This document shows positions 1 through 63,937 of a DNA stretch of 64,000 bases, piece after piece (the stretch's first letter is position 1; each line of letters begins with the position of its first letter). Where the stretch lies: NCBI GenBank assembly GCA_030272155.1, contig CP126200.1, positions 2,852,001 to 2,916,000 of the forward strand. Direction: 5' to 3'. Position numbers and translations under genes: made by a program. The stretch is from Tetradesmus obliquus. Taxonomy: Eukaryota > Chlorophyta > Chlorophyceae > Sphaeropleales > Scenedesmaceae. Below the pieces are notes generated by a model. The model was not told where the DNA came from. It worked only from the letters and a program-made list of their open reading frames with translations, and ran no database searches.

Positions 1-1
1 G

Positions 2-417
2 CACGGCCATGTAGATCGATCTGGTTGTATGTGTAGATTCCGACAACGGCTTTGTAGATAGCGTGCGGCCGTGAGTCCTGAGGAGCTGGGGCTGTGGCGG
101 CTGCCTGAGGGCGAGCTGGGCGCGATCCACTTCAGGGCGGTGGAGCGCATCTACGGCGACCAGGTGGGCAGCAATGTAGACCAAATAATCTCATTATGCT
201 AGAATACCTTGTATTGTCTTCTGGCATTGTTTGCGGCCATGAGCCCTGAGGAGCACGGCCATGTAGATCGAACATAATATATGTGTAGATTCCGCAACAA
301 TGGCTTTGAAAATAGCGTGCTGCCATGAGCCCTGAGGAGCGCGGGCTGTGGCGGCTGCCTGAGGGCGAGCTGGGCGCAATCCACTTCAGGGCGGTGGAGC
401 GCATCTACGGCGACCAG
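2..417 (+). repeat. Tandem duplication of a SIN3 exon with its acceptor and upstream intron
   Basis: Bases 2-163 and 254-417 are near-identical copies about 254 bp apart. Each contains intron sequence, a TAG acceptor, a 102-nt (34-codon) exon and a GTGGGC donor. Both exon copies are open in the same phase and differ at only a few codons (for example SPEELGLW against SPEERGLW). Either or both could be used. A shorter fragment of the exon start lies at 236-261. Confidence 0.85.
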
Positions 418-60678: not shown

Positions 60679-63600
60679 TCAGACAATCCACTCGCCCACC
60701 CGTTCAGTCGAGCTGTCTGGCGCTGCCTCCATGCTCGATGAAACATTGCAGCCGTCAGACACAAGTGGCAGCGGCTCCGAAAGCCCTCCGCGCATCGCCC
60801 TCACATCAACAGAAGAATCTTGAGACGGCCGCACATCTGCCCGGCGCTGCTGCAGCATGCCTGTTGCCGTATCCAGCTCCTTCCAAGCTCCGCCTGCTGC
60901 AGCATTCAGCGGCGCAAGCCGCTGCACCGGCCCGCCCCATGTTGTTGCTACTGGTGCTGCTGCTGGCCTTGGCGCTGCCGGCGGTGTGGCGCCTGCTGCT
61001 GCTGCTGCTGCTGCTGGCCATGGCGCTGCCGGCGGAACTGCTGCTGCTGCTGCTGCTGCTGCTGCTGCTGCTGCTGCGCCTCGCCGCTCCAAGCCCAAGG
61101 ATGCTGCCACCTGCTCCTGTGTCAAGTAGCCGTCATGCTCGCCGCTGCTGCTGCTGCTGTCATCGCTTGCGTTGGCTGCATCTGCCGCGCCGTACAACCC
61201 TACATCCTCCGTAGAGTCCTTGGCAGCGGCATCTGGAGTGCAATCTGCATCCTGATGTCCGCATCCTGCTGCTGCTGCTGCATCCTGCGCAGCCGCCCTT
61301 CTCATCCGCTGCCCGCGAGCTGGAACAGGAGTGTCCAGCAGCACTGGCCTGGGTGGTAACGGGCCGATGACGCTGCTTGCAGACACAAGTGAGGCTGCAC
61401 GCGTAGTGCCGCTGCCTCGCACGCCGGGGGTCGCGGGTTTGAACCCCACCAACTGCCCTGCGGAGTTTCCGCTGCAGCCGCCACCCACACATGCGCCTGC
61501 TGCTGCGTGCGGCAGAGGGGCGCTCTGGCTCTGCGGCATTGCTGAGGATGCCTGTTGGTGGTGGTTGGTTTCGAGCTGCTGCTGGTCTGCTGCTGCTTCA
61601 CTGAGTCGCAGTTGCCTGGCATCGACCATCCACACAATGGTATCCAGCACTGTGGCGATTGTCGGGCGCAGCGCAGGATCTGCACCCCAGCAATGCTGCG
61701 AGGAGCAGCAGCAGCAGCAGTGGCAAGGTGTGTCGTCAGGTGATGCTGATAACGGATGCGATGTTGCTGCTTTCGCTTGTCTGATCTGGCAACATGGACA
61801 CGTTGGCATCCATGGCAACGAACACGGCATTGATAGTACAGCACCCAATGCTGCTCCAAAGCCTTTGTTGTTTGAGAATATGTCATTTTGCTTACGTAAG
61901 CTGTTATAACAATGTTATAACTCACCTCAACCAGCAACGCGTAATCTTCCGGCATGTGGGCTGGGATGATGGGCCGCTGCTGGTGCTTGTACACCAGGTC
62001 CAGGAATTGCCCGTAATGCAGCGAGCGGAACGCAGCCTGCAGCAGCACACACACACAAACCTTTGTGTCAGCACAACGGTGTGGCGTTATCAAGAAGTGA
62101 GATGCATATGCTGACAAGGCAAAGAGTTGATCTGTTGGGTAGCTGATGGGGAATGCAAGCACATGCCAGGTTGAATGCTTCTGACACATCAGCTCAACAG
62201 AATGCGCTGCCGCTCAAGCCATCCATCCTTAGCGCCACCGTGCTGCTGCTGCTGGTGCCGCGGCAGCCAGCATAACGGCAGCATCACTGCCAACCGACGC
62301 GCGGCCTGTGTGCAGCTCCCACATGATGACGCCAAAGGCGAAAGTATGCCTTTGTTGCCTCTATGTTACGTTGAATGCATGCAGTAAGTAACTGTGGTAC
62401 AAGTGCCGCCCACCTGGCCCGTGTACAGCTCCCACATGCTGATGCGAAACGCAAGCGTTTCCTGCAATGTTTCCTCTAGTTTTATGGGCAACCTCTACGT
62501 TGTGCAGAATTTGATATGGCAAAAAGGATTGCCAAAAGGTTTGCAAATGCAAAATGTATCATATTATGCAATGCAATGCAAAATGTATCGTGTTATTCCA
62601 GTCGCCCACCTGGCCCGTGTACAGCTCCCACATGGTGACGCCAAAGGCGTACACGTCAGCAGGCATGCCCATGCGCCCGTAGCGCAGCAGCTCTGCAGCA
62701 AGCAGAGACAGGTGCACACGCGTTCACGTACACAGCAGCAGCAGCAGCAGCAGCAGCACACGCGCCATTGCCGCTGAGCACCACATTGCAGGACCCCTAA
62801 GCACCTCGTCCTGCAGGACAAGCTACGGAGAGTGATCAGCCATCATGCATCGCTGTGTCTTGGATGCAGGAAGGTATGCCAGGGCACCTGTTGGCTTGAA
62901 CCCCTGATGCACGCAAAGTATTACACGAATGCTGCATACACTGAAGAACAGCAGTCAAGGGGCGGCCTCGCACAGTGTCCGCAGCCTCACCTGGTGCTGT
63001 GTGGCTGAGGGTGCCGCAGGTGTTGGTGGTCCTGTGCGTCTCATGCTGCTTGATGGTGCGAGACAGGCCTGCGGACACACACAACAGCAGCAGCAGCAGT
63101 GGTTGCATGGTGGGTGGAACATGCATAAATGCCAAGCCAGATTAAAATGAGGCACATGTGCTAGCCATGCAGACGTCTCCTCTACTGCTCAACCAACCAT
63201 GTACTTTCAAGTGCCTGTACAACAGTTGCGTGATCCACAAAATGCAGGTGCAGCAGCTGCACATGCTGCTGTTGTCTAGATCTTTCCTGTAATAGCTGCA
63301 ACTCAGCAGCACTCACCCAGGTCTGCCACCTTGGCCACCACTCCTAGCGGGCTCATGGCACTTGCGCTGACTAACACGTTGCGGCCATTCTGCATAGCAG
63401 CAGCAGCAGCAGCAGCAGCAGCACGCCTTGAAGGAACATAATGGGGAGAATTGCCATGCGCAACACAGCGCTGAGACAACCCAAACTACTACTCAGCCGC
63501 TGAGCGGCGCCCCACAGGACTTTCTTTTCAACCAAATACTTATCTGCATGATCAATTGAGCTTCATCAAACCCAATAGCTGACATAGCTGGACTATCTGT

Positions 63601-63937
63601 CACTGTCTGTTAGGAACATGTGAAGTCAAAAACAATCAAACATCCCCACCACGTTGCCATGCACCACGCCGGCCTCGTGCAGCGCCTTGAGCCCCTCCGC
63701 CACTGGCCCACGCGCTACTACTTCTTGTAACCAACATAACACATTGAAACATAATATAACATAACGTAGCATAACACTACTCTCACCAGGTCGCCGTGCA
63801 CCACGCCTGCCTCGTGCAGCGCCTTGAGCCCCTCCGCCACGTCACGCAGCAGCAGCAGCACCTTGAGCATCCGCTCGTCGTCCTGCGGGCACGGCGCTGG
63901 CAGCTTGGCCACCAGGTTGCCCAGCGTGCCGCAGTCA
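60679..63937 (-). CDS. TKL/RAF-like protein kinase, catalytic C-lobe and tail (5' end outside window)
   Basis: Exons on the minus strand: 63787-63937, 63317-63389, 62991-63068, 62610-62692, 61926-62036, 60679-61695; phases agree. Kinase motifs in order: CGTLGNLVAKL (hinge/helix D), LHEAGVVHGDL then NGRNVLVSA (catalytic loop), VAKVADLGLSR (DLG in place of DFG), GTLSHTAPELLRYG (P+1/APE), ADVYAFGVTMWELYTGQ (helix F), then HCWGADPALRPTIATVLD (helix H/I). This set fits plant and algal tyrosine-kinase-like Ser/Thr kinases. The loop reads HGDLNGRN: HRD is HGD, as common in algal TKLs, and the usual catalytic-loop Lys is Asn. A 300-residue Ala/Ser-rich tail follows. The N-lobe should lie beyond 64000. 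Several splice echoes accompany it. Confidence 0.92.
62290..62462 (-). repeat. Two echoes of kinase exon 62610-62692
   Basis: Plus-strand 62405-62452 (CCTGGCCCGTGTACAGCTCC) and 62299-62345 (TGTGCAGCTCCCACATGATG) repeat the exon's 3' half, codons for AFGVTMWELYTGQ, with the closer copy keeping a donor-like GTGGGCGG. Both lie downstream of the real exon on the coding strand. Confidence 0.87.
63655..63712 (-). repeat. Echo of the kinase catalytic-loop exon
   Basis: Repeats 63788-63840 almost exactly (GTGCAGCGCCTTGAGCCCC) about 130 bp downstream on the coding strand. The copied loop would read VVHGNV instead of VVHGDL, so the copy could not encode an active site. Confidence 0.87.

Follow-up and report, generated by a model that had tools for sequence, protein, structure and literature searches.

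Genes of the alga Tetradesmus obliquus carry, beside many of their exons, partial copies of the exon's own edge together with its splice site, on the same strand and within the adjacent predicted intron (termed echoes here). About one in five of the confidently predicted exon edges lies within such a local copy pair (92/460, echoes predicted as exons being counted in both numbers). As to their origin, we lean, if only slightly, towards recurrent short tandem duplications that straddle exon edges, with splicing keeping the first donor or the last acceptor and the intron half of the duplicated unit eroding first.

The DNA surveyed amounted to 264 kb and comprised the window, i.e., the whole 64-kb stretch to which all positions given here refer, and ten 20-kb blocks from C1 to C10, while a later sample of four 10-kb stretches added 40 kb more. 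After masking of CTG/CAG and further simple tracts, the window was aligned to itself by BLAST, which at ≥40 bits gave 59 direct versus 2 inverted matches within 1,000 bp and 10 further apart. Over the 264 kb, 227 direct and 15 inverted matches were found within 600 bp, the direct ones in all 11 stretches and 8 of the 15 inverted ones in a single block of long ORFs (L013_L014). The later 40 kb yielded 44 direct and 0 inverted matches, all 44 from three of the four stretches; the fourth (L032), in which an ORF-bearing unit of 4.28 kb is repeated in tandem, gave no local repeats. The exon-edge copies proposed in an earlier, sequence-only reading of the window are real, local and same-oriented, each matches its own neighbour exon and, being seen across the sampled genome, they are not specific to the window. 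Of the nine gene names given in that reading, seven are backed by Pfam matches (SIN3, BolA, DEG7-like with trypsin and PDZ_1, bL17, USP, mS29/DAP3 and kinase), while fragments of the genes called DMT and ABM matched no Pfam family.

Before pairs were counted, matches below 45 bits, offsets above 600 and redundant overlapping pairs were dropped, which reduced 200 hits to 140 pairs. Exon models are self-trained predictions made without RNA-seq, so that edges, introns and exonic fractions are all predicted ones. A gene model that set no minimum intron length moved towards shorter introns (median from 376 to 107) and was replaced; its replacement still fuses genes, takes echoes as exons and misses exons. 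Copies lie 101-149 bp apart in 67 of the 140 pairs, with further clusters at 240-255 (near 245) and 380-405 (near 390), and the spacings first noted hold in the main: arrays repeat every 111-124 bp or so, whereas single copies lie about 77-310 bp away and a few are wider. Offsets below approximately 70 bp occur in 2/140 pairs, a scarcity not claimed to be biological, since in this sequence Tandem Repeats Finder reports 77 arrays with periods of 10-59, and since such pairs may have gone unseen through masking and near-diagonal BLAST hits. The ratio of copy length to offset is ≥0.75 in 39/140 pairs, and true tandem arrays are present; at ≥95% identity the median ratio is 0.39 and 18 of 22 pairs are spaced, with mostly unrelated flanks. 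Offsets divisible by three show no excess (35/140), on which ground in-frame extension into the echo was rejected.

Copy pairs take in predicted exon edges more often than chance would, 57/140 pairs doing so versus 34.2 ± 4.7 under random placement; in the later 40 kb this excess is weak (11/30 versus 7.1 ± 2.2, P = 0.058). Among spaced pairs of ≥88% identity, 18/50 lack a confident exon, and in many of these 18 a splice consensus was recognized by eye, though not blind. Donor copies lie downstream and acceptor copies upstream of the exon in 46/50 cases, and in 10/10 in the later DNA, as duplication across the junction demands. In young pairs (≥90% identity), similarity continues past the copy (z > 2) on the intron side in 8/19 and on the exon side in 1/20; this asymmetry fails below 90% identity (mean z 1.57 on the intron side and 1.95 on the exon side, outliers included), and over all 50 pairs z exceeds 2 in 34% on the intron and 18% on the exon side. 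Several copies of 95-100% identity, flanked by unrelated sequence, break off no further than about 8 bases beyond the donor or 5 ahead of the acceptor, and in the mS29 pair 49193-49254/49478-49539 no similarity was found beyond the copy. The loci of the window are compiled in Table 1.

Table 1 Exon-edge copies in the window; exons are predicted, and bit scores and identities are given where available
Feature	Span	Strand	Details
First gene, predicted exon 86-163 with donor and second copy 253-433	1..433	+	Offset 252, 90%; homology runs 16 bp past donor
Acceptor-side copies of one exon start: decayed 440-475, then period-119 array 578-879	440..879	+	Last copy leads into predicted exon 826-921
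SIN3 acceptor echo 3184-3277 upstream of exon start 3429-3522	3184..3522	+	Offset 245; partial middle copy 3299-3347
SIN3 exon end 3765-3840, donor echo 3886-3961	3765..3961	+	Offset 121; 69.8 vs 45.6 bits
SIN3 exon end with donor 4588-4636, donor echo 4679-4727	4588..4727	+	Offset 91, 96%
BolA exon part 7582-7629, copy 7437-7484	7437..7629	-	Offset 145, 83%
DEG7 exon end ...VVGQVYVAE with donor 12409-12500, donor echo 12659-12751	12395..12751	+	40.5 vs 29.9 bits
DEG7 acceptor array, up to 7 exon-start copies	12837..13639	+	Period about 118; last copy continues into exon
DEG7 exon end with donor (real, to 15012), downstream echoes 15111-15223 and 15304-15416	14900..15451	+	Graded decay
DEG7 exon end 15827-15876, donor echo 15947-15996	15827..15996	+	Offset 120; 42.6 vs 39.2 bits, one residue
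DEG7 acceptor echo 16187-16245 upstream of exon start 16290-16350	16187..16350	+	22.3 (echo) vs 67.7 bits
DEG7 exon end 16369-16416, donor echo 16557-16604	16369..16604	+	Offset 188
Predicted exon 18224-18377, acceptor echo upstream 18059-18104, donor echo downstream 18546-18636	18059..18636	+	
Acceptor-side copies before predicted exon 19907-20054	19643..19966	+	Offsets 115 and 243
Acceptor echo 20386-20421 upstream of exon start 20526-20561	20386..20561	+	
Gene called ABM, three graded copies of one exon start (YKDKEYVEQVHW...)	30538..30901	-	Offsets 111-249
bL17m gene, copies 33022-33082/33112-33170 and 33478-33564/33608-33690	33022..33690	-	First pair: offset 90, 95%
USP predicted exon end 35713-35766, donor echo 35790-35843	35713..35843	+	Offset 77
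Gene called DMT, copy pair	40433..40596	+	Offset 118, 85%
mS29 exon end GKSIAVVQLVEWARNNGW with donor 49193-49254, donor echo 49478-49539	49193..49539	+	Offset 285, 97%
mS29 exon end ...DLVMTGLSTDDN with donor, downstream echoes from 50181 and 50355	49979..50420	+	71.0 vs 64.7, 60.0 bits
mS29 acceptor array of exon start ARGFRLLQRDDLAQCRVLVAD	51001..51518	+	Spacing 108-120; last copy real
mS29 acceptor echo 51841-51913 (VETAHALSYCHERGL) upstream of exon start 51981-52053 (VETAHALFYYHERGL)	51841..52053	+	52.8 (echo) vs 74.4 bits
Kinase exon end ...MWELYTGQ with donor 62603-62649, downstream donor echoes 62407-62452 and 62303-62340	62303..62649	-	
Kinase exon end ...HEAGVVHGDL with donor 63784-63840, donor echo 63647-63703	63647..63840	-	Echo reads ...VVHGNV

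Related proteins allow the intact copy to be told from the echo. In 10 of 10 informative edges it is the echo that deviates, besides one tie and one unscorable pair. The graded decay claimed initially is directly visible in DEG7, where a related protein is matched at 101, 96.5 and 89.7 bits by the three copies of one exon end. For BolA, the copy at 7582-7629 is probably the real one, judging from a Pfam BolA match in the ORF 7594-7899. Each of two DEG7 motifs is single-copy in every related protein holding one (15 of 58), and the mS29 proteins of relatives (P0081-P0084) have one copy. In this assembly's deposited mS29 protein (P0080), one echo of the array 51001..51518 is translated, and this extra segment is absent from the protein of another strain. 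Copy identities range from about 70 to 100%, which agrees with the earlier suggestion of a process running continuously, as far as such a range can indicate.

Mismatches fall on the three codon positions as 246:207:413, with nearly equal column numbers, corresponding to rates of 0.092, 0.077 and 0.155 versus 0.147 in introns. Third positions thus behave like introns and positions 1 and 2 at about half that rate, a pattern to be expected when only one of the two copies is under constraint. The third-position excess ratio, however, reaches 2.7 in clear echoes and 3.4 in spaced edge echoes versus only 1.3-1.9 in simulations, and is partly unexplained by neutral echo decay. Strict coding constraint on echoes is unsupported once copies are polarised by related proteins; in echoes not predicted as exons, 6 of 111 non-synonymous codons are nonsense changes, and 7/44 echo pairs contain gapped changes.

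According to the reading that we favour, short local duplications, with units mostly of 100-150 bp, would recur in intron-bearing T. obliquus genes, the birth event probably being a tandem duplication, e.g., by break repair with fill-in or by replication slippage. A unit lying across an exon-intron junction would give a pre-mRNA with two copies of that junction, and the duplication would be tolerated because a normal mRNA still results when splicing takes the first donor or the last acceptor, the inner copy becoming intron, i.e., an echo that is presumably skipped in splicing as a rule. The echo would then decay, its exon half eroding mainly on the echo side, while the intron half would erode faster because both of its copies are free to change and to take indels; as a result, an exon edge plus splice site would remain visible longest. 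Repeated duplication at one junction may give the arrays.

Uniform duplication with neutral decay does not reproduce the data in full, as simulations gave 26-42% spaced and 17-41% exonic pairs (depending on setting and exon set), whereas 72% and 66-77%, respectively, are observed. Exonic as well as spaced copies are thus underpredicted by the uniform model, so that exon edges are favoured or retained. This excess speaks for a different mechanism, in which transcribed junctions, through breaks or stalled synthesis (R-loops, spliceosome-bound nascent RNA, RNA-templated patching), seed the copying of 30-100 bp exon-edge patches, spaced rather than tandem, into the adjacent intron. The nearly identical copies that end close to the splice site amid unrelated flanks point the same way, as does the repeat-free ORF-bearing array L032, though this array may simply be young. 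Yet the intron-side flank similarity of young pairs and the existence of true tandem arrays argue against such seeding, junction-limited ends can also arise by decay (median simulated intron-side length in spaced exonic pairs of 1.5-5 bp), and no clean exon-exon (spliced) echo was seen among 59 chained candidates, many from arrays, on which grounds a spliced-RNA template was rejected. Altogether, we regard junction seeding as possible but clearly the less probable account, and only a shade more tentatively could one propose that such local copying, not selection-filtered random duplication, keeps writing patches about 120 bp into introns and drives intron growth. Tandem duplication followed by continuing gene conversion between echo and exon would keep the exon halves alike while flanks are lost, matching the high identity within copies, and the synonymous excess over neutral echoes could reflect copying from another allele; conversion itself leaves the exon bias unexplained, however, and we consider it unlikely.

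That the echoes are functional alternative or mutually exclusive exons appears very improbable. The third-position excess, pairs without non-synonymous change (such as SIN3 3184/3429 with 5/5 differences at third codon positions) and full-exon-like copies in a few arrays would fit, but the displayed echoes mostly carry one splice site, contain the stops and gaps mentioned, deviate at every informative edge, show no preference for offsets divisible by three and have no counterpart in the mS29 proteins of relatives. Intron gain, raised in general terms by the sequence-only reading, is slightly less credible still as the main process in its form of AGGT-segment duplication (Rogers model). AG|GT stands at the junction in some echoes, and potato RdRp (PMC4974935) shows that a new intron can come from duplication of an intron-exon junction; the classic signature, however, a predicted intron of length d that starts at the GT of copy 1 and ends at the AG of copy 2 (within 3 bp, in register), is found in 1/140 pairs and lacking in the others. 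Together with the single-copy DEG7 motifs in related proteins, this suggests that existing introns were lengthened rather than new ones made. Transposition, already dismissed in the initial reading, or assembly artefact can practically be discounted: the DEG7 repeat block matches itself alone in 104.7 Mb, and one tested spacer matched 22 other places solely via a short stretch (query 12-74) including a CAG run. Moreover, copies differ by up to about 30%, and a separate contig carries the one echo checked, its 1,217-bp contig ORF P0078 matching the window in 109/109 residues across SIN3 exon end, donor, spacer and echo (4588..4727), with some residues differing downstream of the echo, which makes an artefact unlikely.

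Adjacent copies of exon sequence within one gene also result from tandem exon duplication with mutually exclusive splicing, whereas the echoes described here are mostly partial, carry one splice site and decay. Introner elements repeat intron sequence on a genome scale, but are dispersed and alike between genes, while the echoes tested (two queries) match their own neighbour only. Single cases of exon-edge copies are known from elsewhere. In the case described in PMC4974935, the transcript gained a copied acceptor and exon start through a tandem duplication spanning an intron-exon structure, and a second, 83-bp intronic duplication is reported as well; there, one gene is involved and the copied junction made a new intron, whereas here the copies concern about one fifth of predicted edges and look unused. 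The Rogers/Hellsten model of intron birth, as summarised in the same text, likewise starts from tandem duplication with splice signals inside the segment, but its defining intron between the copies is the rare exception here. When staggered breaks are filled in by Pol alpha-primase, small tandem duplications result, as described among human insertions of <100 bp (PMC8355091), and like the present ones they are short, direct and sequence-independent. Here, in contrast, offsets peak at 100-150 bp, with multiples, and favour exon edges, and a shared mechanism, one depending on CST/primase, would be putative.

Intron lengthening and the origin of new splice sites have so far mostly been inferred from single relics. 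A genome with echoes at this density would make it possible to study splice-site choice, decay and the mechanism of duplication in hundreds of natural experiments, and two chromosome-level strains are available for comparison (PMC12571836), the second under accession GCA_030272055.1. If junction seeding were true, local copying would be what lengthens the introns of this alga. To judge from the one case of mS29, echo-derived errors may be present in further gene models of this family. CTG/CAG tracts were considered as seeds of the copies and rejected, as tracts within 45 bp are rarer at edges with copies than at those without (0.16 vs 0.52 for acceptors and 0.09 vs 0.22 for donors, a comparison biased by masking). 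The spacers between copies, on the other hand, are tract-rich (0.18 vs 0.077).

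The claim of the sequence-only reading that introns here carry exon echoes, i.e. decayed partial copies of an exon edge with its splice site, holds both in the window and outside it. In self-BLAST with simple tracts masked, the window alone gave 59 direct versus 2 inverted matches (up to 1 kb apart, at least 40 bits). Sampling was extended over the genome of this green alga, Tetradesmus obliquus (104.66 Mb on 17 contigs, 5,661,717 bases of which belong to C10, where the window occupies positions 2852001-2916000), and the window plus ten 20-kb blocks yielded 227 direct and 15 inverted matches at most 600 bp apart, with direct local repeats in 11 of 11 stretches, covering 5-20% of each. 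A later set of four 10-kb stretches added 44 direct matches and 0 inverted ones, all from three of the stretches; the fourth, L032, contained no local repeats. The sampled stretch L013_L014 (C3:1,000,001-1,020,000) has long ORFs, few direct copies and 8 of all 15 inverted local repeats; it is possibly an endogenous algal-virus region, and one of its ORFs presumably resembles the chaperone-of-endosialidase repeat.

The anatomy of the copies was examined in oriented alignments. Donor-type copies consist of the final ~30-100 bp of an exon and a few intron bases, while acceptor-type copies comprise the AG and the initial 30-100 bp of an exon. Their placement follows a nearly strict side rule: donor copies lie downstream of the real exon in 29 cases versus 1 upstream, acceptor copies upstream in 17 versus 3 downstream, and the later-fetched stretches added 5 donor and 5 acceptor copies with 0 exceptions. 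Among donors of at least 90% identity (n=17), median homology is 8 bp on the intron side and 55 bp on the exon side. Beyond the copy, the flanks of young pairs (donor or acceptor, at least 90% identity) are more alike than random intron flanks, at z>2, in 8 of 19 cases on the intron side and in 1 of 20 on the exon side; intron-side likeness of this kind is what a duplicated unit spanning the junction should leave behind. Below 90% identity the asymmetry is gone (mean z 1.57 on the intron side, 1.95 on the exon side), which partly reflects a few very high z values; over all 50 pairs, z exceeds 2 in 34% and 18%, respectively.

The proposed tie to exons was likewise borne out, using a gene-structure model trained on the sampled sequences themselves (237 confident exons, 20% of 264 kb). 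A confident exon edge falls inside 57 of the 140 retained pairs, compared with 34.2 +- 4.7 under random placement (maximum 49 over 300 placements), and pairs without any exon part number 48 versus 84.6 expected. The signal is weaker in the later-fetched DNA, where the unchanged model placed an edge in 11 of 30 pairs versus 7.1 +- 2.2 at random (P 0.058). Conversely, 92 of 460 confident edges lie within a copy pair, some being echoes that the gene model took for exons.

Which copy is the exon was decided with 106 related proteins, the window's own deposited protein being excluded. SIN3, DEG7 and mS29 together offer 10 informative edges, and at all 10 the copy designated real by the side rule outscores the echo, although at DEG7 edge 15827 by one residue's difference; the two copies of the mS29 P-loop exon tie, and one SIN3 pair was left unscored because a homologue itself holds the echo. 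Graded decay, also part of the original description, is visible in DEG7, where bit scores against a related protein fall from 101 through 96.5 to 89.7 over the three copies of an exon end. Of 58 proteins searched by regular expression for the two DEG7 motifs, 15 hold one, and in each of these it occurs once.

Mismatches at codon positions 1, 2 and 3 number 246, 207 and 413 (~2,675 columns each), corresponding to rates of 0.092, 0.077 and 0.155, with 0.147 in intron columns of the same alignments. This pattern is the expectation for one constrained and one free copy. In 44 pairs with clear echoes, changed codons comprise 141 synonymous and 111 non-synonymous ones, with 6 stops and 7 gapped pairs; stops at ~5% of non-synonymous changes are a rough expectation rather than a computed figure. 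The 38 pairs whose echo is itself a predicted exon show 109 synonymous and 137 non-synonymous changed codons and 2 stops.

A simple model of uniform short tandem duplication and neutral decay was simulated with unit sizes resembling the observed ones, selection acting on the real exon, and an indel-to-substitution ratio of 0.09, 0.12 or 0.4. A first run drew 6,000 duplications, discarding 689 that broke an exon, and a second drew 3,800 over three settings; observed ratios are 0.10-0.11 in copy alignments and 0.09 in a paralogous block (24 gaps, 268 substitutions). Such passive duplication would be the best single account of copy anatomy, and it recovers the shortness of the intron side in spaced pairs, i.e. 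those with a length/offset ratio below the 0.75 that defines tandem-like pairs. Two shares are not matched, the simulated values lying below the observed ones: the exonic share (17-26% versus 66%, or 92/140, for confident exons; 29-41% versus 70-77% for all predicted exons) and the spaced share (26-42% versus 72%). Hence, some property of exon-intron junctions appears to raise the birth or survival of copies. The third-position ratio also exceeds simulation in spaced pairs (2.4-3.2 versus 1.3-1.9; tandem-like pairs 1.9), so that some of the spaced pairs may once have served as exons for a time, or may stem from the copying of a diverged allele.

Offsets between copies of 101-149 bp account for 67 of the 140 pairs (19/39 tandem-like, 48/101 spaced), with further clusters at 240-255 bp (16 pairs) and 380-405 bp (6 pairs). 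In Tandem Repeats Finder output, arrays with periods of 100-139 form a modest peak (13 arrays), beside 77 arrays of 10-59 bp; many short-period arrays in the window are CTG-rich. CTG/CAG runs are very common across the whole window, where ~7% of bases were masked as simple tracts, and such runs often lie at intron 3' ends, as (TGC)nTGCAG.

P0078, an ORF on a separate 1,217-bp contig, is identical to the window frame over 109 of 109 residues, a span that takes in SIN3 exon, donor, spacer and echo 4679-4727, several residues differing beyond it; another assembly therefore has this echo, the single one checked. The deposited protein of the window's mS29 gene, P0080 ('hypothetical protein OEZ86_005486 [Tetradesmus obliquus]'), translates one echo as an extra segment (comparison with window 51001-51609) that is missing from P0082 of the other T. 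obliquus strain. The mS29 proteins P0082, P0083 (Scenedesmus), P0081 (separate contig) and P0084 (EukProt entry) each hold a single copy of the duplicated exon part.

Among the titles listed by a literature search that most subscription journals lay outside of, none describes exon-edge duplication as a pervasive feature of algal introns; the nearest published parallel is a potato case (PMC4974935). By term search, "intron" and "exon" are absent from the main text of two papers on T. obliquus or Sphaeropleales genomes (PMC12571836, PMC7590803). Another paper puts the mean intron of T. obliquus at 462 bp and the number of introns per gene at 7.8 (PMC5966456).

Further features of the window and of stretch L032
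Feature	Location	Details
Inverted duplication	window 22200-28500	~2.2 kb; small Cys-rich, apparently secreted, protein genes
TCA tract	window 42807-42933	uninterrupted, ~42 units
Near-perfect palindrome	window 53212-53477	arms 129 bp, 8 bp between
Tandem array	L032 (C17:1,000,001-1,010,000)	4.28-kb unit with two ORFs

The inverted duplication, with a divergence of 11% at coding third positions and of 25%, with 24 gaps, in aligned non-coding sequence, is a useful local clock.
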